NCBI GenBank assembly: GCA_020441225.1
Contig: JAGRMP010000127.1
Coordinates: 325 to 11,901, forward strand
DNA length: 11,577 nt
Source of the DNA: Maritimibacter sp.
GTDB taxonomy: Bacteria; Pseudomonadota; Alphaproteobacteria; Rhodobacterales; Rhodobacteraceae
Direction of reading: 5' to 3'
Both the position numbers and the translations under genes were made by a program. The stretch's first letter is position 1. The number at the start of each line of letters is the position of its first letter. The notes below the pieces were generated by a model. That model saw nothing but the letters and a program-made list of their open reading frames with translations, was not told the DNA's origin and ran no database searches. Shown here piece after piece: positions 1-11,577 of the stretch.

Positions 1-44
1 TCTTCGTCACGGCAGAAGGTCTTGGTAAGCTTGAACAGTTTCAT
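1..44 (-). CDS. 5' end of a small protein gene, possibly a Flp-type pilin (partial)
   Basis: Only the first 14-15 codons lie in the window, reading MKLFKLTKTFCRDE and continuing off the left edge. The start is supported by a strong GGAGG (53-57 on the minus strand) eight bases upstream of the ATG at 44-42. An ATG at 49-47 is ruled out because it meets a stop two codons later. A short basic N-terminus followed by an acidic 'RDE(D/E)' resembles the leader of Flp family type IVb pilins in Rhodobacteraceae, which usually continue DGAVTVDW. That identity is inference from a few residues. The gene is divergent from the lytic transglycosylase and shares the AT-rich intergenic region with it. Confidence 0.45.
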   Translation of the reverse strand, partial: MKLFKLTKTFCRDE

Positions 45-439: not shown

Positions 440-1300
440 ATGATGCGGGTCAGTCCTTTCCTGACGTTCCTGGCATATGCTTTCGCATGCGTGCCGTTGC
501 ACGCTGCGGCCGAAAGCTTGCCCGAATACCCAGATTTCACCTTCAAACGGGTCTCGGTGCCGCAGGTCGGGCAGGGGCCCAAGATCAGCGTCCAGATCGA
601 TCCGGTGGAGCAGGCCGCTTTCATCGCATCGCGTCCGAAACCCGGGGCGCAAAGGTTCGACCCGACCGCCGAGCCGGTCGTTGCGGCCGTGCCGGCCGCT
701 GCGCGGGTGACGGCCAAGAGCGGCTGGGAATGGTTCTGGGAAGGGGTGTCGCCCACGCGCGACACCGCCGGGCCCGCCAATGTCGCCAAGGCGCTGCGGT
801 CGCTTGAGACCGCCGAGGGGATCGCCGAGCCGCGGTTGCAGACGCTGCAGAACATCGCCCGCGCCTATGGCCGGCAGATCCTGACCGCCACGATCGGTAC
901 CGATGTGTCGCCGGCGCTGGTGCTGGCGCTGATCTCGGTCGAAAGCAGCGGCCTGTCCTCGGCCGAGAGCCACAAGGGCGCCCAGGGGCTGATGCAGCTC
1001 ATCCCCGATACCGCCGCGCGGTTCGGGGTCGAGGATGCGACCGATCCGGCCCAGAACATCAAGGGCGGCGTGGCCTATCTCGAATGGCTTTTGGAGAAGT
1101 TCGACCGCGATCCGATCCTTGCGCTTGCAGGTTACAATGCCGGTGAAGGCGCGGTGCTCAAGCACAATGGCGTCCCGCCCTTCGCCGAGACCCGGGCCTA
1201 TGTGCCCAAGGTGCTGGCCGCCTGGCGGGTGGCGCGCGGGCTGTGCCAGACCCAGCCCGAACTCATCTCGGACGGGTGCGTTTTCACGGTTTCGGGCTGA
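440..1300 (+). CDS. Secreted lytic transglycosylase (SLT family 1, GH23)
   Basis: The 286-residue protein probably cleaves the beta-1,4 MurNAc-GlcNAc bond of peptidoglycan with formation of 1,6-anhydroMurNAc in the periplasm. An N-terminal signal peptide (about residues 1-23, hydrophobic core then HAAA) precedes a low-complexity segment (about 25-115). A C-terminal SLT domain follows (about 145-262). Family hallmarks are visible: ISVESSG with the catalytic Glu at 168, GAQGLMQLIP at 180-189, and LAGYNAGEGAV at 229-239. The ATG at 440 (with a second ATG at 443) was preferred over the in-frame ATG at 266 because the signal peptide begins there and the upstream residues look like translated leader. 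It lies 49 bases before the HAD-UbiA gene on the same strand. Cysteines at 269 and 280 could form a C-terminal disulfide. Confidence 0.9.
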   Translation: MMRVSPFLTFLAYAFACVPLHAAAESLPEYPDFTFKRVSVPQVGQGPKISVQIDPVEQAAFIASRPKPGAQRFDPTAEPVVAAVPAAARVTAKSGWEWFWEGVSPTRDTAGPANVAKALRSLETAEGIAEPRLQTLQNIARAYGRQILTATIGTDVSPALVLALISVESSGLSSAESHKGAQGLMQLIPDTAARFGVEDATDPAQNIKGGVAYLEWLLEKFDRDPILALAGYNAGEGAVLKHNGVPPFAETRAYVPKVLAAWRVARGLCQTQPELISDGCVFTVSG

Positions 1301-1349: not shown

Positions 1350-2780
1350 ATGGGTGAAACAAGGCCGCTGGTGCTCGATGTCGACGGCACCTTTCTCAAG
1401 ACCGACATGCTGCTCGAATGCTTCTGGGCCGGGCTCGGGCGCGATCCGCTGGCGACGCTGCGCGCCTCGGTCACGCTGATCGGCGACCGGGCGGCGCTCA
1501 AGGCGCAGCTCGCGCGCATCGCCGCGCTCAGGACCGATCTTCTGCCGGTGAACGGCGGGGTGATGGCCGAGGTCGAGGCGGCCCGGGCCGCGGGCCGCGA
1601 GGTGATCCTGGCTTCCGCCTCGGATGAGAGCCTGGTCAAGAGCCTCGCTGCCGACCACGGGTTGTCGGAGCGCGTCTTCGGCTCGGACGGCACCACCAAC
1701 CTCAAAGGCGCCGCCAAGGCGAAATCGCTGGTTGCGGCCTTCGGCGACGGCGGGTTCGACTACGGCGGCAACGAGGCCGCCGACCGCAAGATCTGGGCCA
1801 AGGCGGCCGGGGCGCTGGTGGTGAACGATCCCGCCTCCGCCCGGCTCCTCGAAGGGCAGGGCAAGCCGGTGACCCGGATCGAGGGCGGCTGGCGCTGGGG
1901 CAGCCTCGCGAAAGCCTTTCGCCCGCATCAATGGGTCAAGAACCTGCTCCTTTTCGTGCCGCTCCTCGCCGGTCACGCCTTCCATGCCTGGCCCTGGATC
2001 GTCACCCTCCTGGGGGCACTCGCCTTTTCGCTGGGCGCCTCGGCGATCTACGTGGTCAACGACCTGCTCGACCTCGAAGCCGACCGGCTGCATGCCACCA
2101 AGCGCCGCCGCCCCTTCGCCTCGGGTCGGGTGCCGATCCTCGTGGGCATGGCGGCGGGTACCGCCGCAGGGCTTGCGGCGCTGGGGATCGCGGCACTGAT
2201 CGGCTGGGGGTTCTGCGCTGTGCTCGCGCTCTACATGGCGCTGTCGCTCGCCTATTCGCTGCAGCTCAAGCGGATGCGCTGGATCGACATCGCAACCCTT
2301 GCGACGCTCTACACCATTCGTGTGGTCGCGGGTGCGCTGGCCTCGGGCGTCGGGATCTCCGGCTATCTTCTGGTGTTCATCTACCCGGTCTTCATCGCGC
2401 TGGGCGCGGTCAAACGGATCACCGAGCTCACGCTTGCGCGCTCCGACGCGCGGCTTCCGGGCCGCGGCTACGGCCGGCCCGACCGGAGCGACCTGCTCAA
2501 CGTAGCGGTCCTCGGCATGGTCGGCGCGCTCGTCGCCTTCTTCGGCTATTCCTTCACCGAACAGGCGCATGCGCTCTACCCGACGCGCTGGCTCCTGTGG
2601 GTGGCGCTGGTGCCGATCTTCTGGTGGCTCTACCGGATGATCCGGATGGGCTGGGCCGGCAAACAGGATTACGACCCGATCGTTTTCGCACTGCGGGACA
2701 AGCGCGGCATCGGTATCCTGCTGATCGCGCTGTCGATCATGTTCCAGGCCGCGGGGATCTGGCGCGCCTGGCTGGGATAG
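1350..2780 (+). CDS. HAD phosphatase-UbiA prenyltransferase fusion, predicted polyprenyl-phosphate phosphoribosyltransferase (DPPR synthase-like)
   Basis: The 476-residue protein has two domains. The N-terminal HAD-like domain (about 1-180) carries motif I LDVDGT (Asp10, Asp12), a Ser-containing motif II strand (ILASAS, 86-91), a lysine region (LKGAAKAK, 118-125) and a motif IV variant GGNEAAD (139-145). The C-terminal UbiA domain (about 185-476, eight to nine membrane segments) has NDLLDLEAD (237-245), then ATKRRRP (249-255) and YSLQLKRMRWID (302-313). That first motif closely resembles the NDxxDxExDRxHPTKRxRP motif of mycobacterial DPPR synthase Rv3806c, rather than ubiquinone-type UbiA. 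Predicted reactions are PRPP plus polyprenyl phosphate to polyprenyl-phosphoryl-phosphoribose, then 5-dephosphorylation. The dprE1/dprE2 homologues downstream support this. The acceptor lipid is inferred. The alternative is a generic UbiA transferase. The start has a moderate GGGGCAGG upstream. Confidence 0.82.
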   Translation: MGETRPLVLDVDGTFLKTDMLLECFWAGLGRDPLATLRASVTLIGDRAALKAQLARIAALRTDLLPVNGGVMAEVEAARAAGREVILASASDESLVKSLAADHGLSERVFGSDGTTNLKGAAKAKSLVAAFGDGGFDYGGNEAADRKIWAKAAGALVVNDPASARLLEGQGKPVTRIEGGWRWGSLAKAFRPHQWVKNLLLFVPLLAGHAFHAWPWIVTLLGALAFSLGASAIYVVNDLLDLEADRLHATKRRRPFASGRVPILVGMAAGTAAGLAALGIAALIGWGFCAVLALYMALSLAYSLQLKRMRWIDIATLATLYTIRVVAGALASGVGISGYLLVFIYPVFIALGAVKRITELTLARSDARLPGRGYGRPDRSDLLNVAVLGMVGALVAFFGYSFTEQAHALYPTRWLLWVALVPIFWWLYRMIRMGWAGKQDYDPIVFALRDKRGIGILLIALSIMFQAAGIWRAWLG

Positions 2781-2842
2781 GCTTGCACTCCCGTGGGTCC
2801 GGGCGCAGGCTGGAGCTGCGCGACCGGGCTTGGAGGTGAGCC

Positions 2843-3907
2843 ATGAAATGCGTCGTCCTCGGTGGATACGGCGGTGTCGGCCGGAGCCTGTGCCGCGCGC
2901 TTCAATCCGAACGGAACGCCGAGGTGATCGTCGCGGGGCCCCGCGCGGACCGGGCCCGTGCCTTTGCCACCGAGATCGGCGCGGGTTGGGCCGATGCCCG
3001 TGCGGAGGAGGCGAACAGCCTGGCGCAGGCCTTCGCGGGCGCGCGGCTGGTGATCGTTTCCGCCCCGGTTGGTGCGCATATCGCCGGGATCGGCGCGGCG
3101 GCGCTCGACGCGGACGCCGACATGGTCGACATCCTGCTCGATGCCGCGGTGCCCGACCGTCTCGCCCCGCTCGCCGACAGGGCGGCCGAGCGGGGGCGTG
3201 TGCTCCTGACGCAAGCGGGGTTTCACCCCGGCCTCCCCGGCGTTTTCATCCGCGCGGCGGCACTCCGCCTGGACCGGCTGCACAGCGCCCGGGTGACGAT
3301 GGCGATGTCGACCGCCTTCGACCAGCCCGCCGCCACGCGCGAGCTGGTGCAGGCGGTTGCAGCCAACGATGCGCGCATCCTGGAGGCGGGGGCCTGGCGC
3401 AGGGCGGGGTGGCGCGACATGGTCGAGGTGGAGTTCGGCGCGGGTTTCGGCGCCCGCAGCACCTTCCCGCTCCGAATGCGCGAGATCGAGGATCTGGGCT
3501 TGCCCGAGATGACCGAGGCCGGGGTCTGGGCCGCGGGGTTCGACAAGGTGACGGACAATCTGCTGATGCCGCTCGCCATGGCCTTCGGCGGCACGGGCTG
3601 GGGCCAGCGCCTGATCGGCCGGGCGATCTGGGCCGCCACCCGGAGGTGGCCAGCGCCGGGTCGGGGCGTGGTCTTCCGTCTCGAAGCGGAAGGCGCGCTC
3701 CACGGCGCGGCCGCCGCGCTCACCCTCGAAGCCCGGGCGGACGACGCCTATCGCTTCACCGTCGACGCGGTGATGGTCGCGCTCGCCCAGCTTCTGGACG
3801 GGACGTTGCCGCCGGGGCTGCATTACATGGGTCGCGCGCTGGACCCCGACCGGGCGCTTGCCGATCTCGCCGCGCGGGGCGTCGCGGTCGATACGCGCTG
3901 GCGGTGA
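2843..3907 (+). CDS. Saccharopine dehydrogenase-like NAD(P)-binding oxidoreductase of unknown substrate
   Basis: The 354-residue protein begins with a Rossmann fold: MKCVVLGGYGGVGRSLCRAL has a GxGxxG-type loop at 8-13, followed by predicted beta-alpha units to about residue 125. A conserved-looking turn AGFHPGLPG (125-133) resembles the point in saccharopine dehydrogenase-family proteins where the substrate domain begins. The C-terminal half (about 135-350) is soluble-looking and I cannot assign a substrate. The start is well supported by GGAGGTGAG at 2832-2840. It lies 62 bases after the UbiA gene and 87 bases before allE on the same strand. Position alone does not say whether it serves the arabinose-lipid or purine pathway. 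True lysine-pathway saccharopine dehydrogenase is unlikely given this context. Confidence 0.75.
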   Translation: MKCVVLGGYGGVGRSLCRALQSERNAEVIVAGPRADRARAFATEIGAGWADARAEEANSLAQAFAGARLVIVSAPVGAHIAGIGAAALDADADMVDILLDAAVPDRLAPLADRAAERGRVLLTQAGFHPGLPGVFIRAAALRLDRLHSARVTMAMSTAFDQPAATRELVQAVAANDARILEAGAWRRAGWRDMVEVEFGAGFGARSTFPLRMREIEDLGLPEMTEAGVWAAGFDKVTDNLLMPLAMAFGGTGWGQRLIGRAIWAATRRWPAPGRGVVFRLEAEGALHGAAAALTLEARADDAYRFTVDAVMVALAQLLDGTLPPGLHYMGRALDPDRALADLAARGVAVDTRWR

Positions 3908-3940
3908 GGGCCGGGCACCGGCGACCGCGCGGCTTCCCCC

Positions 3941-3969
3941 TTGGCCTCCCCCGATCTCGGGCCTATGAC
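3941..3969 (+). promoter_or_regulatory. Candidate sigma-70-type promoter for allE
   Basis: TTGGCC (3941-3946) and TATGAC (3964-3969) are separated by exactly 17 bases, each matching four of six consensus positions. This lies in the 87-base gap upstream of allE and would give a short leader of about 20 bases. No operator could be recognised. Confidence 0.35.
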
Positions 3970-3994
3970 ATTGCGGTATCACGAAAGGCGAGCC

Positions 3995-4819
3995 ATGACC
4001 CAACGCACCTATGCGACCCCGCCCGGCGGGCTGCCGCCGCAGAGCGAGCTGCTCTCGGGGCGCGCCGTGTTCACCGAGGCCTATGCGGTGATCCCCGCGA
4101 ACACTATGCGCGACATCACCCTGATCGCGCTGCCGTTCTGGGCGATGACCAAGGTCTGGGTGATCGCCCGGCCGATGACCGGCTTTGCCGAGACCTTCTC
4201 GCATTACATCCTCGAGGTCGCGCCCGGCGGCGGTTCGCCGCATCCCGAGACCAATCCCGCGGCCGAGGCGGTTCTGTTCGTGACCGCGGGGCAGGTGGTG
4301 GTCAACATCGAGGGCCAGCCCTACCGGATGGGCCCGGGGGGCTATGCCTGGCTGCCGCCCGGCTGCGACTGGACGCTGGAAAACCCAGGACCGGCGCGGG
4401 CCGTGCTGCACTGGATCCGCAAGCGCTACATCGTCGTGGACGGGATCGAGACGCCACAGGCTTTCGTCACCAGCGAGCGCGATCACGCGCCGCACCCGAT
4501 GCCCGACACCGACGGGCGCTGGGCCACGACCCGCTTCGTCGACCCGCTCGACACCCGCCACGACATGCACGTGACCATCGTCACGCTCGAGCCCGGCGCG
4601 GTGATCCCGTTTCTCGAAACCCATGTGATGGAGCACGGGCTCTACGTGCTGCAGGGCAAGGGCGCCTACCGGCTCAACCGCGACTGGGTCGAGGTCGAGG
4701 CGGGCGATTACATGTGGCTGCGCGCCTTCTGCCCGCAGGCCTGTTACGCCGGCGGCCCGGAGCCGTTTCGCTACCTGCTCTACAAGGACGTCAACCGGCA
4801 CGCGGCGCTCGATCTCTGA
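3995..4819 (+). CDS. allE: (S)-ureidoglycine aminohydrolase (bicupin)
   Basis: The enzyme releases ammonia from (S)-ureidoglycine to give (S)-ureidoglycolate, the step before AllA in allantoin degradation. The 274-residue product has two cupin domains: about 60-140 (SPHPETNPAAEAVLFVTAG, GGYAWLPPG) and about 190-265. The second carries the expected metal ligands in the pattern E-x-H-x3-H...Q: Glu208, His210, His214 and Gln248. The segment VMEHGLYVLQGKGAYRLNRD is strongly characteristic of the family. Length matches known members. I chose the ATG at 3995 over an upstream in-frame start because CGAAAGGCGAGCC precedes it and the family N-terminus fits. It is alone here: the other purine genes are about 4.3 kb away on the other side of the arabinose-lipid operon. 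Its substrate-producing partner AllC is not in the window. Confidence 0.92.
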   Translation: MTQRTYATPPGGLPPQSELLSGRAVFTEAYAVIPANTMRDITLIALPFWAMTKVWVIARPMTGFAETFSHYILEVAPGGGSPHPETNPAAEAVLFVTAGQVVVNIEGQPYRMGPGGYAWLPPGCDWTLENPGPARAVLHWIRKRYIVVDGIETPQAFVTSERDHAPHPMPDTDGRWATTRFVDPLDTRHDMHVTIVTLEPGAVIPFLETHVMEHGLYVLQGKGAYRLNRDWVEVEAGDYMWLRAFCPQACYAGGPEPFRYLLYKDVNRHAALDL

Positions 4820-4868
4820 GTGCCCGGGGCACGTGGCAGCTGTGGGCGGACCCCGGACCGGCGTCGCC

Positions 4869-4893
4869 GAGACCCCGGCGCCTCTTCGGTCTC
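4869..4893 (+). other. Hairpin downstream of allE
   Basis: GAGACC (4869-4874) pairs with GGTCTC (4888-4893) across a 13-base loop that itself contains GGCGCC. It lies about 50 bases after the allE stop and has no T-run, so it is at best a weak terminator or RNA-stabilising structure. Confidence 0.25.
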
Positions 4894-4933
4894 ACCCCGC
4901 GGGCGATCCGCCGCCGAAGGGGGCGGTAAACGG

Positions 4934-4962
4934 TTCGCATTTTTGAAACAATTCCATATTAT
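4934..4962 (+). promoter_or_regulatory. Candidate promoter of the flippase-dprE1-dprE2 operon
   Basis: TTCGCA (4934-4939, four of six) and TATTAT (4957-4962, five of six) are separated by 17 bases inside a sharply AT-rich patch (4938-4975) in an otherwise GC-rich region. The predicted start, near 4969, would leave a leader of only about 24 bases. No clear Shine-Dalgarno precedes the ATG at 4993, so translation of the first gene may be weak or leaderless-like. A second TTGAAA at 4943-4948 lacks a well-spaced -10. Confidence 0.45.
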
Positions 4963-4992
4963 CGCCGCAATAACGCGCTAACCCGAAAACAA

Positions 4993-6006
4993 ATGGCGAT
5001 GTCGAGCACCGACCCTTTCCCCGCCGCGCCCCGCGCGCCGAAACGCCGCCTGCGCGACAGGCTGGTGGTGGCCGGGCTCGTGGTGCTGGTCTTTGCCGGG
5101 CTGGCAGGGCTCGCCGCTGCGACCGGCTGGGAAGAGACGCGCGCCCAGATTGCCAAGCTGCATCTGTGGCAGCTCCTGGTCCTGCTCGCGCTTTCGATGA
5201 CCAATTACCTCTTTCGGGGCCTGCGCTGGCACATGTTTTCCGAGCATCTCGGCCTGCCGCTCGGCTATCTCGCCACCTTTCGCCATTTCCTCGGCGGCTT
5301 CGCGATGAGCGTCACCCCCGGCCGGCTCGGCGAGCTGGTGCGGATGCGCTGGATCGGGCGCGAGACGGGCTGGAAATTCGAACGCACCGCGCCGCTGGTG
5401 CTGGTCGACCGCGCCTCGGACCTCGCCGCGCTCGGCGTGCTGCTCGGGGTGAGCCTCGCCTTTTCCGCGACCGGCATCGCCTTCGGCATCCCGGTGACGC
5501 TGCTCGCCCTCGCGGGCGCGCTTCTGGCCACCCGACCGCGGCTCCTGCGCGCCGTCGCCACCTGGGGCCACAAATCCACCGGACGGTTCCCGCGGCTGTT
5601 TGCCAAGATCCGGCGCGCGTCCGACGCGCTCGCGGCCTTCAATTCCCCCCTCGCGATGACGCTCGCCGGGATCCTCGGGATCGTCGGCTGGTATGCCGAG
5701 GGCTATGCCTTTCACCTGCTCCTTGCCTGGATGGGGGCCGACATCGGCCTCGCCAAGGCGGTGGCGATCTTCGTGTTCTCGGGGCTCGCCGGCGGGCTCA
5801 CCGGCGCGCCGGGCGGGGTCGGCGGCGCGGAAGCCGCGATGATCGCGCTGCTGACGCTCGAAGGCGTGCCGCTCGAGGCTTCCGTGCCTGCGACCGCCAT
5901 CATCCGGGTCACCACCCTTTGGTTCGCCATCGGGATCGGCCTTCTGGTCTTTCCCGCCGCCGAACGCATCTCGTTGAGAAAGAAACATGCTCTGGAAAGA
6001 AACTGA
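4993..6006 (+). CDS. Flippase-like integral membrane protein (LPG_synthase_TM / UPF0104 family)
   Basis: The 337-residue protein has about seven to eight hydrophobic segments (near 23-43, 60-75, 93-108, 145-158, 162-180, 222-245, 255-275, 300-320). It shows the conserved pattern of the lysylphosphatidylglycerol-synthase transmembrane family: NYLFRGLRW (71-79), TPGRLGELVRM (108-118), VLVDRASDL (136-144) and GAPGGVGGAEAAM (271-283). It lacks the catalytic aminoacyl-transferase domain of MprF, so it matches the stand-alone transmembrane form. Family members are linked to lipid or lipid-linked-sugar translocation. Its 20-base overlap with the dprE1-like gene suggests it acts on that pathway's product, perhaps flipping polyprenyl-phosphoryl-arabinose to the periplasm as GtrA-type Rv3789 was once proposed to do. 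That role is inference. An ATG at 4999 is an alternative start. Confidence 0.82.
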   Translation: MAMSSTDPFPAAPRAPKRRLRDRLVVAGLVVLVFAGLAGLAAATGWEETRAQIAKLHLWQLLVLLALSMTNYLFRGLRWHMFSEHLGLPLGYLATFRHFLGGFAMSVTPGRLGELVRMRWIGRETGWKFERTAPLVLVDRASDLAALGVLLGVSLAFSATGIAFGIPVTLLALAGALLATRPRLLRAVATWGHKSTGRFPRLFAKIRRASDALAAFNSPLAMTLAGILGIVGWYAEGYAFHLLLAWMGADIGLAKAVAIFVFSGLAGGLTGAPGGVGGAEAAMIALLTLEGVPLEASVPATAIIRVTTLWFAIGIGLLVFPAAERISLRKKHALERN

Positions 6007-7309
6007 CTATGCCGGCTGGGCCCAGGTCCACAAGGCGCGCGGCTCCGTAGCCCGGCCCGAACGCGCGGCCCAGCTTACGCGGCTGATGCAGGACAGCCCC
6101 GCGCCCGCCCACGGGATGCGGCGCAGCTACAACGACAGCCCGCTCAACGACGGCGGCGCCGCGATCGACATGACCCGGATGGACAAGATCCTCGGCTTCG
6201 ATCCCGAAACCGGCGTGCTCGAGGTCGAGGCGGGCGTGCAGCTCGGCGATCTCGTCCGGCTCTTCGCGCCGCGCGGCTGGGTGCCCGCCGTGGTGCCGGG
6301 CACCGGCTTCCCCACCGTGGGCGGTGCCATCGCCCATGACATCCACGGCAAGAACCACCACGTGCTCGGCTCTTTCGGTCAGCATGTATTGGCGGTCACG
6401 TTGGTCCAGCCGGGCGGGAAACGCATCGAGGTGACCCCCGAGAGCGACCCGGCGCTGTGGCGTGCGACCATGGGCGGGATCGGCCAGACCGGGGTGATCG
6501 TCGCGGCGCGGCTCCAGATGATCCCGACCCCGGGCGACGGCATGCGGGTCAAGGAAACCCGCGTCGCCAATTTCGACGCCTTTCTCGAGCTGCTCGACAG
6601 CTCCGACTATCGCTACAACGTCGGCTGGATCGACGGCACCGCCACCGGTTCGGCGTTGGGCCGCGGCATCCTCGAGGAAGCCGAACTGTCCGAGCCGCCC
6701 CGGCGGGCGCGGGGCCTGCCGGCGATCCCGGTGCCGATCAACCTGCCCGGATTTGCCCTGTCGGCGCCGACGGTGAAAAGCTTCAACGCGCTCTACTGGC
6801 GCAAAGTACCGGCGGCGGGCAACACCCATGTGATGCCGATCGCGCAACATGTCTTCCCGCTCGACAAGCTCCACGACTGGTACCGGCTCTACGGCAAACG
6901 CGGCTTTCACCAGTTCCAATGCGTGGTGCCGCTGGAAAACGCCGCCGTGCTCAAGGAGATCGTCGGCAGGATCGCGCGCTCGGGCCTCGCTTCGCCGCTC
7001 GCGGTCATCAAGCGGATGGGCGAGGGGCGCGCCGGTATGCTGAGCTTCCCGATGGAGGGCTACACCCTCGCCATCGACTTCCCGGCCCGCGACAAGGCCG
7101 AGGCGCTCATCAAGGAGCTCGAAACGATGACGCTGGAGGCGGACGGGCGGCTGTATCTGGGCAAGGACGCGCTCGCGACCGGCGACCGGATCAAGGCGAT
7201 GTACCCCGAATGGCAGGCCTGGGCGGCGGAGGCGGCCAAGGCCGACCCCGAGGGCCTGCTGATCACCGACATCGTGCGGCGGTTGCAGCTTCGGGAGGTC
7301 CAGCAATGA
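5987..7309 (+). CDS. dprE1: Decaprenylphosphoryl-beta-D-ribose 2'-oxidase homologue (FAD)
   Basis: The 440-residue FAD-dependent oxidase is predicted to oxidise C2 of polyprenyl-phosphoryl-ribose to the 2-keto intermediate passed to DprE2. From memory of the mycobacterial protein, many blocks match: RSYND (46-50), GGAAIDMT (56-63), PGTGFPTVGGAIAHDIHGKNHH (104-125, His120 and Lys122 matching His132 and Lys134), GSFGQHV (128-134), MGGIGQTG (162-169), LSFPMEGY (352-359) and GRLYLGKD (387-394, Lys393 matching Lys418). The N-terminal half is the FAD_binding_4 domain and the rest the substrate domain. The mycobacterial Cys387 position is Ala362 here, GCC at 7070-7072. Length is close to the 461 residues of the M. 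tuberculosis enzyme. It overlaps its upstream neighbour by 20 bases and the SDR by 4, indicating translational coupling. Azorhizobium NoeO is a related nodulation protein. Confidence 0.88.
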   Translation: MLWKETDYAGWAQVHKARGSVARPERAAQLTRLMQDSPAPAHGMRRSYNDSPLNDGGAAIDMTRMDKILGFDPETGVLEVEAGVQLGDLVRLFAPRGWVPAVVPGTGFPTVGGAIAHDIHGKNHHVLGSFGQHVLAVTLVQPGGKRIEVTPESDPALWRATMGGIGQTGVIVAARLQMIPTPGDGMRVKETRVANFDAFLELLDSSDYRYNVGWIDGTATGSALGRGILEEAELSEPPRRARGLPAIPVPINLPGFALSAPTVKSFNALYWRKVPAAGNTHVMPIAQHVFPLDKLHDWYRLYGKRGFHQFQCVVPLENAAVLKEIVGRIARSGLASPLAVIKRMGEGRAGMLSFPMEGYTLAIDFPARDKAEALIKELETMTLEADGRLYLGKDALATGDRIKAMYPEWQAWAAEAAKADPEGLLITDIVRRLQLREVQQ

Positions 7310-8037
7310 GCACCTGGATCATTCTCGGCGCCACCTCCTCGATGGCGCGCGCCTTTGCCCGTGAAATGGCCGAAACCGGGGCCGATGTGCTGGTCGCGGG
7401 CCGCGACATGGACGACCTCGAAGCCCTCGCGGCCGACCTTGCCGCGCGCGGCGCGGGGTCTGCGGCGGCGGTTGCCTTCGATGCGGCCGACCCGTCCACC
7501 TTCGCCCCCGTGGTCACGCGGCTGGGCGAGACCCAAGGCCCGCTCAACGCCGCCGTCTTTGTCGGCTGGATGCCGAGCCAGGCCGAGGTCGATGAAGATC
7601 CGTCGCTGATCGACCGGGTGGCGGCGGTGAACTACGCAGGCCCCGCGCGCTTCCTGCACGAAATCGCGCCGCTCATCGAGGCGCGCGGCGGCACCGTTGT
7701 CGGTGTGACCTCCGTCGCGGGCGACCGCGGGCGGTTCTCGAACTACGTGTACGGCTCGGCCAAGGCCGGTTTCGCCACCTACCTCTCAGGGCTCCGAAAC
7801 CGCCTGAACCGGTCGGGCGCGCATGTGGTGACGGTGAAGCCCGGCTTTGTCGACACTTCGATGACCTGGGGCGTGGAGGGCATGTTCCTCGTCGCGGCAC
7901 CTGCGGCCGTGGCCAAGAGCATCGCCAAGGCGGTCGAGAAGAAAAAGAACGTGATCTACACGCCCGGGTTCTGGTGGTTCATCATGACCATCATCAAACT
8001 GGTGCCGGAACGGATTTTCAAGAAACTGTCGTTCTGA
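7306..8037 (+). CDS. dprE2: Decaprenylphosphoryl-2-keto-erythropentose reductase homologue (SDR)
   Basis: The 243-residue short-chain dehydrogenase would reduce the DprE1 keto product to polyprenyl-phosphoryl-D-arabinose with a nicotinamide cofactor. The N-terminus IILGATSSMARAFA (5-18) is the DprE2-style cofactor loop. The catalytic set is Ser136 (TSVAGDRG), Tyr149 and Lys153 (YGSAK). PGFVDTSM (179-186) follows as in classical SDRs. The C-terminal tail, about 215-243, is hydrophobic then basic (FWWFIMTIIKLVPERIFKK) and could dock on the membrane near the lipid substrate, as in DprE2 proteins. GGGAGG (7293-7298) lies seven bases before the ATG, which overlaps the dprE1 stop in ATGA. Without the neighbour the SDR fold alone would not fix the substrate. 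The adjacent dprE1 homologue makes the assignment strong. Confidence 0.86.
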   Translation: MSTWIILGATSSMARAFAREMAETGADVLVAGRDMDDLEALAADLAARGAGSAAAVAFDAADPSTFAPVVTRLGETQGPLNAAVFVGWMPSQAEVDEDPSLIDRVAAVNYAGPARFLHEIAPLIEARGGTVVGVTSVAGDRGRFSNYVYGSAKAGFATYLSGLRNRLNRSGAHVVTVKPGFVDTSMTWGVEGMFLVAAPAAVAKSIAKAVEKKKNVIYTPGFWWFIMTIIKLVPERIFKKLSF

Positions 8038-8229: not shown

Positions 8230-9108
8230 ATGCAGCAATCATCGCAGGAGACGGCGGCAAATTCCGCGGGCGGCGTTCTGCTGATGATCGCCGGCGTCGC
8301 CTGCCTGAGCGCGAACGATGCCCTCGCCAAGGCGCTGACGGCGGGCTATTCGCCGTTGCAGATCCTGTTTCTGCGCAACGTGATCGCGCTCCCCTTCACC
8401 ATCGCCATCGGTCTGGTCCTGGGCGGCCCGGCGGCCCTGCGCTCGCATCGCCCCGCGGCGCATCTCCTGCGCGGCGCGCTCTGGGTCGGCGCGACGATCA
8501 TGTTCTTCACCAGCTTCAAGTATCTTGCCCTCGCCGAAGCGACCGCGCTGATCTTCGTCGCGCCGTTCTTCATCACCGCGATCTCGGCGGTCCTTCTGGG
8601 CGAGGAGGTCGGCTGGCGGCGCTGGCTCGCGGTGGTTGCGGGCTTTCTGGGCGTGCTGATCGTGATACGGCCCGGCGGCGCGGCGTTTCAGCCGATCTCG
8701 CTCCTGCCGGTGGCGACAGCGCTGGTCTATGCTGTCCTGATGCTCAGCGCACGCTGGGTCGACCGGCGCGAAAGCGTCTGGACGCTGCTGGTCTACCTCA
8801 CCGCGGCGAGCGCGCTCCTGAGCGCTCTGATCGTGCCCTTTGTCTGGGTCCCGGTGCGGGCCGAAGATCTGTGGCGCTTCGCGGCGATTGCGCTCGTGGG
8901 GACCGCGGGCATGACGATGATGACCCAGGCCTTCCGCCTCGCCCCGGCGGTGGTGGTCGCGCCGATGGATTACACCGGCCTTCTCTGGGCGACCTTGTTC
9001 GGCTGGGTCTTCTGGCGCGAGACCATCGACGGGATGACGGTGCTCGGCGCCGCCGTGATCGTCGCAAGCGGTGTCTTCACCATCCTGCGCGAGCGCAAGG
9101 CCGTCTGA
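8230..9108 (+). CDS. EamA/DMT-family membrane transporter
   Basis: The 292-residue inner-membrane protein has about ten hydrophobic helices in two EamA repeats (roughly 14-147 and 155-288). Typical features are an early SANDALAKAL helix (27-36), LFLRNVIALP (46-55), ALAEATALIFVAPFF (100-114), LLGEEVGWRRW (122-132) and, in the second repeat, APMDYTGLLWATLFGWVFWRE (244-264). Members export or import metabolites such as amino acids, nucleosides or nucleotide sugars, and the substrate cannot be read from sequence. It has its own promoter and ends 10 bases before the converging allA gene, so it is probably a separate transcription unit. Either an unrelated housekeeping role or transport linked to purine catabolism is possible. 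Confidence 0.85.
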   Translation: MQQSSQETAANSAGGVLLMIAGVACLSANDALAKALTAGYSPLQILFLRNVIALPFTIAIGLVLGGPAALRSHRPAAHLLRGALWVGATIMFFTSFKYLALAEATALIFVAPFFITAISAVLLGEEVGWRRWLAVVAGFLGVLIVIRPGGAAFQPISLLPVATALVYAVLMLSARWVDRRESVWTLLVYLTAASALLSALIVPFVWVPVRAEDLWRFAAIALVGTAGMTMMTQAFRLAPAVVVAPMDYTGLLWATLFGWVFWRETIDGMTVLGAAVIVASGVFTILRERKAV

Positions 9109-9118
9109 GGCGCCGTGG

Positions 9119-9616
9119 CTAGCCGACCACGACCCAGTCCTCGGCGTAGCGGTGCTCCTCGAGGTTGTCGCCGTCGCCGACCCGGTCGACCACTGCGAAC
9201 AGTCCCGGCGCTTCGAGCGGCGTGAGTACCCCGTGCCAGGTGCCGCGGTGGAAATTGATCGCCTGCCCGGGCGCGGTGAGGAAGGCCAGCGGATCGCCCG
9301 GCGTCCCGCCCGCATCCGGCGCGACGATCGCCAGAAAGGAACACAGGCACATCGGCACGAAGGCCTGGCTGCCGAGCGGGTGCCGTTCGACCAGGTCGAA
9401 GCGGTAGGGCAGGGCGCGCGGCACGGCGTCGAACAGGCTGAGCGCGGGGCGCCCGCCCGAATCCGGCCCGCCGAAATCGAGCTTAGCCCGGTCATGGTGC
9501 CGCTCGCAGAGCCCCGCGTTGATGAGAAAGTCCGGCCCACGGGTGGTGTCGAGCACGTCGCCGAACGGCGCAAAGGCCTCTGCCGTAAGCGGGACCGCCG
9601 TGATTTCCCGGCTCAC
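9119..9616 (-). CDS. allA: Ureidoglycolate lyase
   Basis: The 165-residue protein is predicted to split (S)-ureidoglycolate into glyoxylate and urea, the last step of this allantoin route. Recognisable AllA blocks are FGDVLD (18-23), ERHPLGSQAFVPM (77-89), GQAINFHRGTWHGVL (117-131) and DRVGDGDNLEEHRY (144-157). Length is close to the roughly 160 residues of E. coli AllA. The start is GTG at 9616-9614, overlapping the TGA of the upstream puuE-uraD gene in GTGA, so the two are translationally coupled. It converges on the EamA gene with a 10-base gap and no obvious terminator between them. AllE, the enzyme making its substrate, is encoded upstream at 3995. Confidence 0.93.
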   Translation of the reverse strand: MSREITAVPLTAEAFAPFGDVLDTTRGPDFLINAGLCERHHDRAKLDFGGPDSGGRPALSLFDAVPRALPYRFDLVERHPLGSQAFVPMCLCSFLAIVAPDAGGTPGDPLAFLTAPGQAINFHRGTWHGVLTPLEAPGLFAVVDRVGDGDNLEEHRYAEDWVVVG

Positions 9617-11025
9617 AGCAGCGCCTCGAGCCGGTGCAGCGCGATCCGCTCGACCTGGGCGCAGGCGGCGGCGAACTCGGTCTCGCTGTCATGGGCGATC
9701 CGCTGCTCGAAGGCGCGCAGGATCCCGGTCTTGTCGTGGTCGCGCACGGCGATGATGAAGGGAAACCCGTGTTTCGCCCGGTAGGCGGCGTTGGCCTGCT
9801 GAAACACCTCGCGCTCCTCGTCGGTCAGCGCGTCGAGCCCGGCCGAGGCCTGTTCGGCGGTGCTGTCGGCGGTCAGGCGCTTGGCGGCGGCGAGCTTGCC
9901 GGCGAGGTCGGGGTGGGCAAGCAGGACCTCCATCCGCTGGTCCCGCGCGGCGCTGCGAAACACCCGCGCAAGGGCGTTGGCGAGCCCCACGGCATTGTCA
10001 TGCGCGGGGCCGAGCTCCAGCCGGTAAGCCCGCTCGGCGATCCAGGGTGAATGCTCGTAGATGCCGCCGAAGGTCTCGACAAAGGTTGCCTGGTCCATCT
10101 GCGAGGGCCGGAGCCGGTCTTTCGGCGGATGGGTCTCGGCCCAGTGCCGGGCGATGTCGATCCGGCGCGGAAACCACACGCCCTCATGCCCCATCGCATG
10201 GTCGATGAACCGTTTCAGCCCCATGATCCGGCCCGGCCGGCCGATCAGCCGGTTGTGCAGCCCGATCGACATCATCTTGGGCGCCCCCGCCATCCCCTCG
10301 GCATAGAGCGCGTCGAAGGAGTCGCGCAGATAGCTGAAGAAATCGTCGCCGGTGTTGAAGCCTTGCGGCGTGGCGAAGCGCATGTCGTTGGCGTCGAGCG
10401 TGTAGGGGATGATGAGCTGATCGCGGTCGCCGATCCGCGCCCAATAGGGCAGATCGTCGTCATAGGTGTCGGAGACATAGGCCATCTCACCGGTCTCGGC
10501 GACGAGGCGCACGGTGTTGACCGAGCACCGCCCGGTGTACCAGCCCTCGGGCGCCGCACCGGTCACCTCGGTGTGCAGCCGGATCGCCTCGGCGATCGCC
10601 GCGCGCTCGTCCTCGGGGTCCATGTCCTTGTGCTCGACCCATTTGAGCCCGTGCGAGGCGATTTCCCAGCCGGCCTCCTGCATCGCCGCCACCTGTTCGG
10701 GCGACCGGGCCAGCGCCGTGGCCACGCCGTAGACCGTTGGCTTGATCCCGGCCGCCTCGAACAGCCGGAACACCCGCCAGAACCCCGCCCGCGCGCCGTA
10801 ATCGTAGATGCTCTCCATGTTCCAGTGGCGCTGGCCCGGCCAGGGCTGGGCGCCGACGATTTCCGACAGAAACGCCTCCGAGGCCGCATCGCCGTGGAGC
10901 AGGCAGTTTTCGCCGCCCTCTTCGTAATTGACCACGAATTGCACCGCGATCCGGGCCGCGCCCGGCCAGGCCGGATCCGGCGTCTCCCGCCCGTATCCAC
11001 GAAGATCGCGAGGATATCTGTGCAT
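9613..11025 (-). CDS. puuE: Bifunctional allantoinase PuuE / OHCU decarboxylase UraD
   Basis: This 470-residue fusion covers two successive steps. The C-terminal UraD domain turns 2-oxo-4-hydroxy-4-carboxy-5-ureidoimidazoline (OHCU) into (S)-allantoin, and the N-terminal PuuE domain hydrolyses allantoin to allantoate. PuuE (about 1-300) is a metal-independent polysaccharide-deacetylase-like fold, with RYPRDLRGYG (3-12), VNYEEGGE (32-39), IASHGLKW (122-129), GWYTGRCSVNT (161-171) and GLHNRLIGRPGR (255-266). UraD (about 305-470) shows GIYEHSPWIAERA (321-333), AHPDLAGKLA (370-379), STAEQASAGLDAL (388-400) and HGFPFIIAVR (419-428). Fusions in this order are known in proteobacteria. GGGAG (11033-11037) lies eight bases before the ATG. 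The gene leads the allA operon and is divergent from uraH. Confidence 0.95.
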   Translation of the reverse strand: MHRYPRDLRGYGRETPDPAWPGAARIAVQFVVNYEEGGENCLLHGDAASEAFLSEIVGAQPWPGQRHWNMESIYDYGARAGFWRVFRLFEAAGIKPTVYGVATALARSPEQVAAMQEAGWEIASHGLKWVEHKDMDPEDERAAIAEAIRLHTEVTGAAPEGWYTGRCSVNTVRLVAETGEMAYVSDTYDDDLPYWARIGDRDQLIIPYTLDANDMRFATPQGFNTGDDFFSYLRDSFDALYAEGMAGAPKMMSIGLHNRLIGRPGRIMGLKRFIDHAMGHEGVWFPRRIDIARHWAETHPPKDRLRPSQMDQATFVETFGGIYEHSPWIAERAYRLELGPAHDNAVGLANALARVFRSAARDQRMEVLLAHPDLAGKLAAAKRLTADSTAEQASAGLDALTDEEREVFQQANAAYRAKHGFPFIIAVRDHDKTGILRAFEQRIAHDSETEFAAACAQVERIALHRLEALL

Positions 11026-11163
11026 ATGACTGCTCCCATGCCCGGTTTTTCAGCAAAAGGGATAGGGGCTTGTGGTCGGGATGGAAACTGTTTTCACTCA
11101 GGGCGCGGGGCGGCTATGGCTTTGACCATCCCGCACGCAATCTTCGGGGAAAGGGCGACTTTC
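11026..11163. promoter_or_regulatory. Divergent control region between puuE-uraD and uraH-puuD
   Basis: The 138-base region must carry promoters for both arms. It contains an odd-centred dyad at 11082-11096, TGGAAAC-T-GTTTTCA, in which six of seven arm positions pair. This is a plausible operator for a purine-responsive repressor. On the minus strand, TTTCCA overlapping this dyad and TATCCC about 17 bases further form a weak promoter pair for puuE. No good plus-strand promoter stands out. No regulator gene is in the window. Confidence 0.45.
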
Positions 11164-11517
11164 ATGGGCGGCTTTCTGACGACGCATGTACTCGACACCG
11201 CGCGGGGCCAACCCGCGGCCGGGATCGAGATCGTGCTGTACCGGCTCACGGACGACGCGCGCGCCGAGATCGCCCGCGCGGTGACCAATGCCGACGGCCG
11301 TACCGATGCGCCGATCCTGCCGGAAACCGCCTTCGAGACCGGCAGCTACGAGCTGGTCTTCTTCGCCGGTGCCTATCTGCGCGCCACGGGGCAGGCGGGG
11401 GCCGAGCCCCTGTTCCTCGACCAGGTGCCGCTGCGCTTCGGGATGTCGGAAGAGACGCATTACCACGTGCCGCTGCTGCTCTCGCCCTTCGGCTATTCCA
11501 CCTATCGCGGCAGCTGA
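11164..11517 (+). CDS. uraH: 5-hydroxyisourate hydrolase (transthyretin-related)
   Basis: The 117-residue enzyme opens 5-hydroxyisourate to OHCU, the substrate of the UraD domain encoded divergently next door. Signatures are TTHVLDTARG (6-15, His8), Arg46 in NADGRTD, PLRFGM (89-94), HYHVPLLLSPFGYSTYRGS near the end (His99, His101) and the diagnostic C-terminal YRGS (114-117). The ATG at 11164 gives the usual length and places TTHVLD five residues in. An in-frame ATG at 11116 would add 16 unusual residues and is less likely. The upstream GGGGAAAGGGCG is only a fair ribosome site. The puuD-like start follows 11 bases later, so they form an operon. Confidence 0.94.
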   Translation: MGGFLTTHVLDTARGQPAAGIEIVLYRLTDDARAEIARAVTNADGRTDAPILPETAFETGSYELVFFAGAYLRATGQAGAEPLFLDQVPLRFGMSEETHYHVPLLLSPFGYSTYRGS

Positions 11518-11528
11518 CGGAGACCCCC

Positions 11529-11577
11529 ATGGAAATCTTCTGGACCATCATCTGGGAATGGGCCGAGTTTGCGGTCC
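11529..11577 (+). CDS. puuD: Urate hydroxylase PuuD-like membrane protein, 5' end only (partial)
   Basis: Sixteen codons are present: MEIFWTIIWEWAEFAV, then the window ends. The hydrophobic, Trp-rich start with WEWAxFAV resembles the first transmembrane helix of PuuD, the membrane-bound urate oxidase with a C-terminal cytochrome c domain in alphaproteobacteria. Its product, 5-hydroxyisourate, is the substrate of UraH, whose gene ends 11 bases upstream. ACGGAG at 11516-11521 overlaps the uraH stop and could serve as ribosome site. Identity rests on few residues plus context. Confidence 0.65.
   Translation, partial: MEIFWTIIWEWAEFAV

Follow-up and report, generated by a model that had tools for sequence, protein, structure and literature searches.

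Introduction

Systems which transfer pentofuranoses from a lipid-linked donor are known from several bacteria, and three-component pentofuranosylation systems are treated as widespread in a 2024 paper by Kelly et al. (PMC11127046). In Citrobacter youngae O1/O2, ORF12-15 encode a HAD-UbiA fusion (PRP-PPPRS), a lipid flippase of the MATE type and a transferase of glycosyltransferase fold C (GT-C), family GT136, with the O-antigen as acceptor; homologues of DprE1 and DprE2 are reported for the systems that transfer arabinofuranose (Araf) (PMC11127046). Here we describe a related gene cluster in a stretch of 11,577 nt from Maritimibacter sp. (Rhodobacteraceae), called the window throughout. Together with a transferase candidate found in relatives, it appears to specify a three-component D-arabinofuranosylation system with the Tad pilus as probable acceptor, a reading to which we give an even chance. 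Compared with Citrobacter youngae, it has a flippase candidate of MprF fold, a predicted GT-C family, designated K11, and a Tad neighbourhood.

In Pseudomonas paraeruginosa, the RGP80 genes and TfpW likewise involve a UbiA-dependent D-Araf donor; the transferase is encoded with the pilin and the pilus is the acceptor. That pilus is of type IVa, not of the Tad type (type IVc), the donor genes lie on a separate island, and arabinose on the pili is reported to confer resistance to pilus-specific phages (PMC12369383). Azorhizobium noeCHOP, likewise from an alphaproteobacterium, has been proposed to provide a precursor of D-arabinose; the acceptor in that case is the Nod factor (PMC2443382). Both Gram-negative precedents had been named in an earlier note on this DNA, and both are indeed documented.

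The mycobacterial decaprenyl-phosphoryl-arabinose pathway (Rv3806c, Rv3807c, DprE1, DprE2, Rv3789, AftA/B/C/D, Emb) has homologous UbiA, DprE1 and DprE2 proteins and GT-C acceptor enzymes; it differs in its products, which are arabinan polymers, and in residue Cys387 of DprE1, the position of which is Ala here. As here, the mycobacterial flippase gene (Rv3789) adjoins dprE1. The phosphatase belongs to another family and the flippase is of the SMR type (PMC11127046). None of the titles and beginnings of abstracts listed by our literature searches, which covered few subscription journals and preprints, describes Tad pili as arabinosylated or reports a DprE cluster in Rhodobacterales.

Predicted donor pathway

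A pathway from phosphoribosyl pyrophosphate (PRPP) via polyprenyl-P-ribose-5-P and polyprenyl-P-ribose to polyprenyl-P-arabinose, as predicted from protein families, alignments with solved structures and conserved residues, appears well supported. The proposal of the earlier note, that a UbiA protein, a fused HAD phosphatase and homologues of DprE1 and DprE2 together could form polyprenyl-P-arabinose, is supported by these data.

The HAD-UbiA fusion scored 504 bits with NF006088 (cut-off 351) and 6.8e-19 with PF01040. Its UbiA half aligned with the solved decaprenyl-phosphate phosphoribosyltransferase 8j8j (1e-25); its HAD half reached 24.4 bits with PF12710, below the cut-off of 27. Catalytic residues were kept in the HAD part (D10/D12) and in the UbiA part (N237, D238, D241, D245, R356, E359), and the UbiA motif was present in 42/42, the HAD motif in 41/42 full-length relatives. 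Mutations of Citrobacter ORF15 showed that N247, D248, D251, D255 and the HAD residue D18 matter (PMC11127046); they correspond to N237, D238, D241, D245 and D10 (or D12) here. With the conserved N-D-D-D motif and the HAD nucleophile present, the protein is a predicted polyprenyl phosphoribosyltransferase of the kind that belongs to three-component pentofuranosylation systems.

For the DprE1-like protein, the nine top PDB sequences were all DprE1 (E 4e-71 to 7e-68), and the best of 294 PDB matches of the DprE2-like protein was the DprE2 chain of 21gq (2e-22). Cut-offs of the curated models for the mycobacterial enzymes were not reached (NF053785, 377 bits, cut-off 500; NF053786, 162 bits, cut-off 250), and the DprE2-like protein slightly exceeded that of the generic SDR model NF005489 (270 vs 267). 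The claim is therefore that these proteins work like DprE1 and DprE2, rather than formal membership. Equivalents of Y60, H132, K134, Q334, Q336, K367 and K418 of DprE1 (M. tuberculosis numbering) were invariant in 81/81 sequences, and the YxxxK motif of DprE2 in 78/78. At the position of Cys387, the benzothiazinone-reactive Cys, all 81 sequences had Ala, and the position of Cys129 varied. Covalent inhibition by benzothiazinones would thus not be expected.

Since the curated cut-offs were not reached, the sugar might be another one: polyprenyl-P-ribose or some other epimer may be the end product, or a different lipid-linked sugar may be the substrate of the DprE1 and DprE2 homologues. Ribofuranose-only systems may exist in the order, since 11 of the 176 genomes of our order sample had a HAD-UbiA match (in some the UbiA part alone) and no DprE1 homologue. 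The seven invariant active-site positions (those of Cys387 and Cys129 apart) speak against this alternative, and so does a second group of DprE1 proteins, encoded ≤15 kb from HAD-UbiA in 29/29 cases; it is considered improbable.

Candidate flippase and transferase

Adjoining dprE1 is a gene for a PF03706 protein of 337 amino acids, which has the flippase domain of MprF and, in the predicted structure, its fold. It was present in 34/35 genomes of the order sample with a DprE1 of the window type, and in none of the 141 others. MprF has the fold in common with it; here the domain is stand-alone, lacks a synthase domain (45 vs 600 bits for the bifunctional MprF model NF033480), is encoded with dprE1, and has polyprenyl-P-pentose as predicted lipid substrate. 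Judging from the model, the neighbourhood and this distribution, the protein is the probable flippase of the donor.

The earlier note had seen no arabinosyltransferase, which holds for the window and probably not for the genome, since relatives carry K11, in most cases at the Tad-locus end. K11 is an unannotated family with a GT-C fold in the predicted model and an invariant Asp just past its first helix; D38 and D58 were invariant in alignments of 19 and 50 sequences. No match was obtained with Pfam at E 0.1 (four members), with NCBIfam (three members) or with the PDB at E 1 (one member); among 50 members, one each matched DUF2142, GT87 (weakly, 3.4e-4) and PIG-P. In the order sample, where 64 genomes have a DprE1 homologue, K11 occurred only alongside one (38/38); P values of such co-occurrences are descriptive only, because the genomes are related. 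K11 adjoined the Tad prepilin-peptidase gene in 32/38 K11 genomes, and in these or most of them it lay between that gene and an AAA-protein gene. Outside the order, it was found in 2/289 genomes of the class sample, both matches being weak (up to five candidates were scored per genome), and two short stretches around these matches contained no relatives of window proteins. K11 is encoded in the genomes of Phaeovulum veldkampii (G010) and Maritimibacter alkaliphilus HTCC2654 (G005), which have the full set of genes. Both of the nearest relatives of the window that were searched carry K11, and its presence in the genome of the window itself would be expected. On the strength of the predicted fold and the distribution, K11 is likely the transferase of the system.

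These data bear also on the possibility that an arabinolipid or some other lipid is formed which stays free, neither a protein nor a polysaccharide being the acceptor. PF03706 proteins (MprF) handle aminoacyl-lipids as well, and the window shows no transferase; the restriction of K11, with its predicted GT-C fold, to genomes with a DprE1 homologue makes such an outcome very unlikely.

Several further genes were noted near K11. An AAA-type ATPase, K9 (L116:6404-7753 and equivalents), with weak Pfam matches, lies beyond K11 at many Tad-locus ends; L125 (G137), for which no K11 was detected, has this gene too. In one genome, a lytic transglycosylase of the SLT type adjoins K11 (L262, G188:C52:148200-152900). 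Divergent K11 proteins (about 20% identical; L140:7603-9216, L144:11958-13700) are encoded beside DprE1/DprE2/HAD-UbiA/GtrA operons that lie apart from Tad.

Association with Tad pili

Among the related loci (the best 80 of 357 matches, many cut by contig ends), Tad genes were present in 50/80, and in 37/43 of those with full flanks of 10 kb. Genes for RcpC/CpaB, secretin, T2SSE ATPase, TadB/TadC and prepilin peptidase were found in relatives, representatives matching PF16976, PF00263/PF13629, PF00437, PF19360 and PF01478; a CpaE-like AAA protein was likewise present. One partial "TadC" piece had no family match, and a gene inside Tad loci which was first clustered as DprE2 proved to be a TPR protein. 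The Tad flank was mostly constant; the other flank varied by lineage (topA and CoA-transferase genes, ureide genes, others). With CpaB in 166/176 genomes, the presence or absence of Tad is uninformative, and linkage was used instead: CpaB lay ≤15 kb from DprE1 in at least 25/35 genomes with window-type DprE1. In G013 and G014, dprE1 was on a separate contig, with HAD-UbiA 2-3 kb from CpaB.

The window begins with 14 codons which share pattern and place with a Flp-like gene beside the SLT gene in the close relative L002. Full-length Flp-like relatives sit directly before the RcpC/CpaB gene; this place and the sequence pattern are the reasons for the name. Pfam Flp1_like gave E 0.015-0.17 in 5/6 full-length relatives, under the cut-off, and the NCBIfam pilin models matched none of the six. 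A tblastn search of plasmids with one Flp-like pilin returned six records, annotated as hypothetical, from genera that belong, by name, to the Rhodobacterales.

Pilins are a natural guess for the acceptor, since type IVa pilins of P. paraeruginosa carry D-Araf and Flp1 of A. actinomycetemcomitans is described as glycosylated (PMC6182317); RcpC has been mentioned in Flp glycosylation (PMC12307814). A possible acceptor signature was sought in the pilin tails, with an ambiguous outcome. The Ser/Thr fraction per genome was 0.30 with and 0.26 without K11 (unadjusted p 0.017), and the total Ser/Thr count did not differ (p 0.48). A C-terminal [ST][YF], a post hoc observation, was seen in 11/19 and 3/7 genomes with K11 and window-type DprE1, and in 3/39 and 0/20 without K11; it was found in 0/3 genomes with K11 and another donor operon, in 0/2 with window-type DprE1 and no K11, and in 23/53 in the first 80 loci. 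It is a lead, which ancestry alone may explain.

Exchange of the donor operon was observed in a small number of genomes, namely three (G030, G116, G163). They have a Tad-linked K11, and their sole DprE1 is of the 40% type, in an operon of HAD-UbiA, GtrA, DprE1 and DprE2, with GtrA in the flippase slot in all three. In the K11 tree, these genomes fell inside the Tad type, in two places separated by well-supported branches. The same pilus-linked K11 with either donor operon is as expected of a transferase which needs only a lipid donor.

Proposed mechanism and its weighing

At the cytoplasmic face, HAD-UbiA would make polyprenyl-P-ribose, the C2 of which DprE1 and DprE2 would invert, yielding polyprenyl-phosphoryl-D-arabinofuranose. 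The PF03706 protein would flip the lipid-linked pentose to the periplasmic face, and K11, found in relatives and not in the window, would move D-Araf onto an extracytoplasmic acceptor. This is most likely a component of the Tad pilus, perhaps the Flp-like pilin, similar to the action of TfpW on the type IVa pilin of P. paraeruginosa. A guess for the SLT protein is that it makes room in the peptidoglycan for pilus passage. All catalytic steps, the sugar, the Tad pilus as acceptor and the presence of K11 in the genome of the window are inferred. The wider proposal is tentative, with slightly less than an even chance: a subset of Rhodobacterales would put D-Araf on Tad pili by means of an MprF-type flippase and a K11 at the Tad-locus end, and elsewhere a GtrA-type donor module would serve the same K11.

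Several observations weigh against the proposal. The evidence consists of sequences and models. Only its sequence pattern and position mark the pilin as Flp-like, and the window holds just 14 of its codons; the tail test was ambiguous. For 10/35 DprE1 orthologs, no CpaB was among the matches listed ≤15 kb away, which contig breaks explain in some cases. The K11 profile found no solved structure in the PDB at E 10. K11 was not found in the DprE1 genomes G002, G003, G009 and G137, the first two of which stand close to the window, with 80% identity in DprE1. No prepilin peptidase is encoded in the 1.4 kb beyond K11 in the L001 genome, the nearest relative, and in the L011 genome K11 is split over two frames (L281, G478:C64), either because the gene is broken or through an error in sequencing. 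The PF03706 gene is absent from G103 and from 7/80 loci, some of these cut, and 3/34 of its matches span a stop codon. HAD-UbiA was not found in G068 and G071 at E 1e-20.

Other observations lead to the main alternative, namely that the donor is made and flipped, and that its sugar goes to lipopolysaccharide, capsule or some other glycan of the envelope; the nearness to Tad would then be inherited gene order and K11 a polysaccharide-modifying GT-C enzyme that lies there by chance. An O-antigen is what the characterised pentofuranose system modifies (PMC11127046). The pathway is dispensable for Tad pili, since only 64/176 genomes have a DprE1 homologue, and Tad is present in most genomes that lack the pathway. 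G050 and G074 encode a divergent K11 next to the donor operon and not at Tad, so that a second acceptor may be served by this transferase family. The position of most K11 genes between those for prepilin peptidase and AAA protein argues for a Tad component instead, and K11 stays at Tad even with another donor operon, although no search aimed at polysaccharide genes was made. We regard a glycan acceptor as rather unlikely, the Tad pilus being preferred.

Gene order and neighbouring genes

The features of the window are given in Table 1. Overlaps of 20 bases between the PF03706 gene and dprE1, and of four between dprE1 and dprE2, suggest one operon. Among the 80 loci, DprE1 and DprE2 were present in 80/80, the PF03706 protein in 73, SLT in 60 and HAD-UbiA in 45; as the members recur together, the gene set is not due to chance. 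The commonest order in relatives was PF03706-DprE1-DprE2, facing HAD-UbiA and SLT on the opposite strand (-> <- HAD-UbiA <- SLT), then Flp-like, CpaB and CpaC onwards in the first direction.

Table 1. Features of the window (positions in nucleotides of the 11,577-nt stretch)
Feature	Position	Strand	Remarks
Flp-like (Tad) pilin, gene start	1..44	-	14 codons (44 to 3), MKLFKLTKTFCRDE, cut by window edge; direct translation
SLT lytic transglycosylase	440..1300	+	PF01464 9.9e-25; divergent from Flp-like gene
HAD phosphatase-UbiA fusion	1350..2780	+	Predicted polyprenyl-phosphate phosphoribosyltransferase plus 5'-phosphatase
Saccharopine-dehydrogenase-like NAD(P)-binding protein	2843-3907		Apparent insertion
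Ureidoglycine aminohydrolase	3941-4819
PF03706 membrane protein, MprF flippase-domain fold	4993..6006	+	Predicted flippase of lipid-linked pentose
DprE1-like FAD oxidase	5987..7309	+	Predicted polyprenyl-P-ribose 2'-oxidase
DprE2-like SDR reductase	7306..8037	+
EamA transporter	Between DprE2-like gene and ureide-catabolism genes
Ureide/allantoin catabolism genes	8230-11577		Ureidoglycolate lyase, PuuE allantoinase-UraD fusion, hydroxyisourate hydrolase at right end (last from translation alone)

In L002, Flp-like (-), SLT, HAD-UbiA, PF03706, DprE1 and DprE2 are consecutive. This uninterrupted order excludes the saccharopine-dehydrogenase-like gene and the ureide genes as parts of the pathway; they appear to be bystanders. 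For the region 1350..8037, the earlier note had thus described the HAD-UbiA, DprE1-like and DprE2-like genes correctly; the genes at 2843-3907 and 3941-4819 are unrelated, and the flippase candidate and the pilin start had been overlooked. Its placement in the Rhodobacteraceae agreed with the related-loci search. At E 1e-8, none of the reading frames in the 80 loci had the product of the gene at 2843-3907 as its best match; this gene is an apparent insertion between the HAD-UbiA and flippase genes.

Methods

The interpretation was based on gene content and linkage, protein families, conserved residues, predicted folds and co-distribution. Order and class samples comprised 176 and 289 genomes, respectively. 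Tad genes were grouped by clustering and named by reading of the sequences, and representatives were checked with Pfam; positions of CpaB in the genome sample were determined with TIGR03177. For the tail test, 20 and 10 stretches with K11 (L199-L218, L244-L253) and 40 and 20 without (L159-L198, L219-L238) were used; stretches in which no Flp-like gene could be detected were excluded. The K11 tree omits the two divergent K11s and one member of an identical pair.

Implications

The tad genes have been proposed as a mark of Rhodobacterales colonising diatom surfaces, in a paper whose text mentions none of the terms decaprenyl, prenyltransferase, glycosyl and transglycosylase (PMC8383342). Since arabinose on type IVa pili is reported to confer resistance to pilus-specific phages, a similar role could be tested here. 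If the proposed system is correct, it would extend D-arabinose chemistry of the mycobacterial type to Tad pili in Rhodobacterales, name a candidate for an unannotated transferase family and give the PF03706 flippase a new function.

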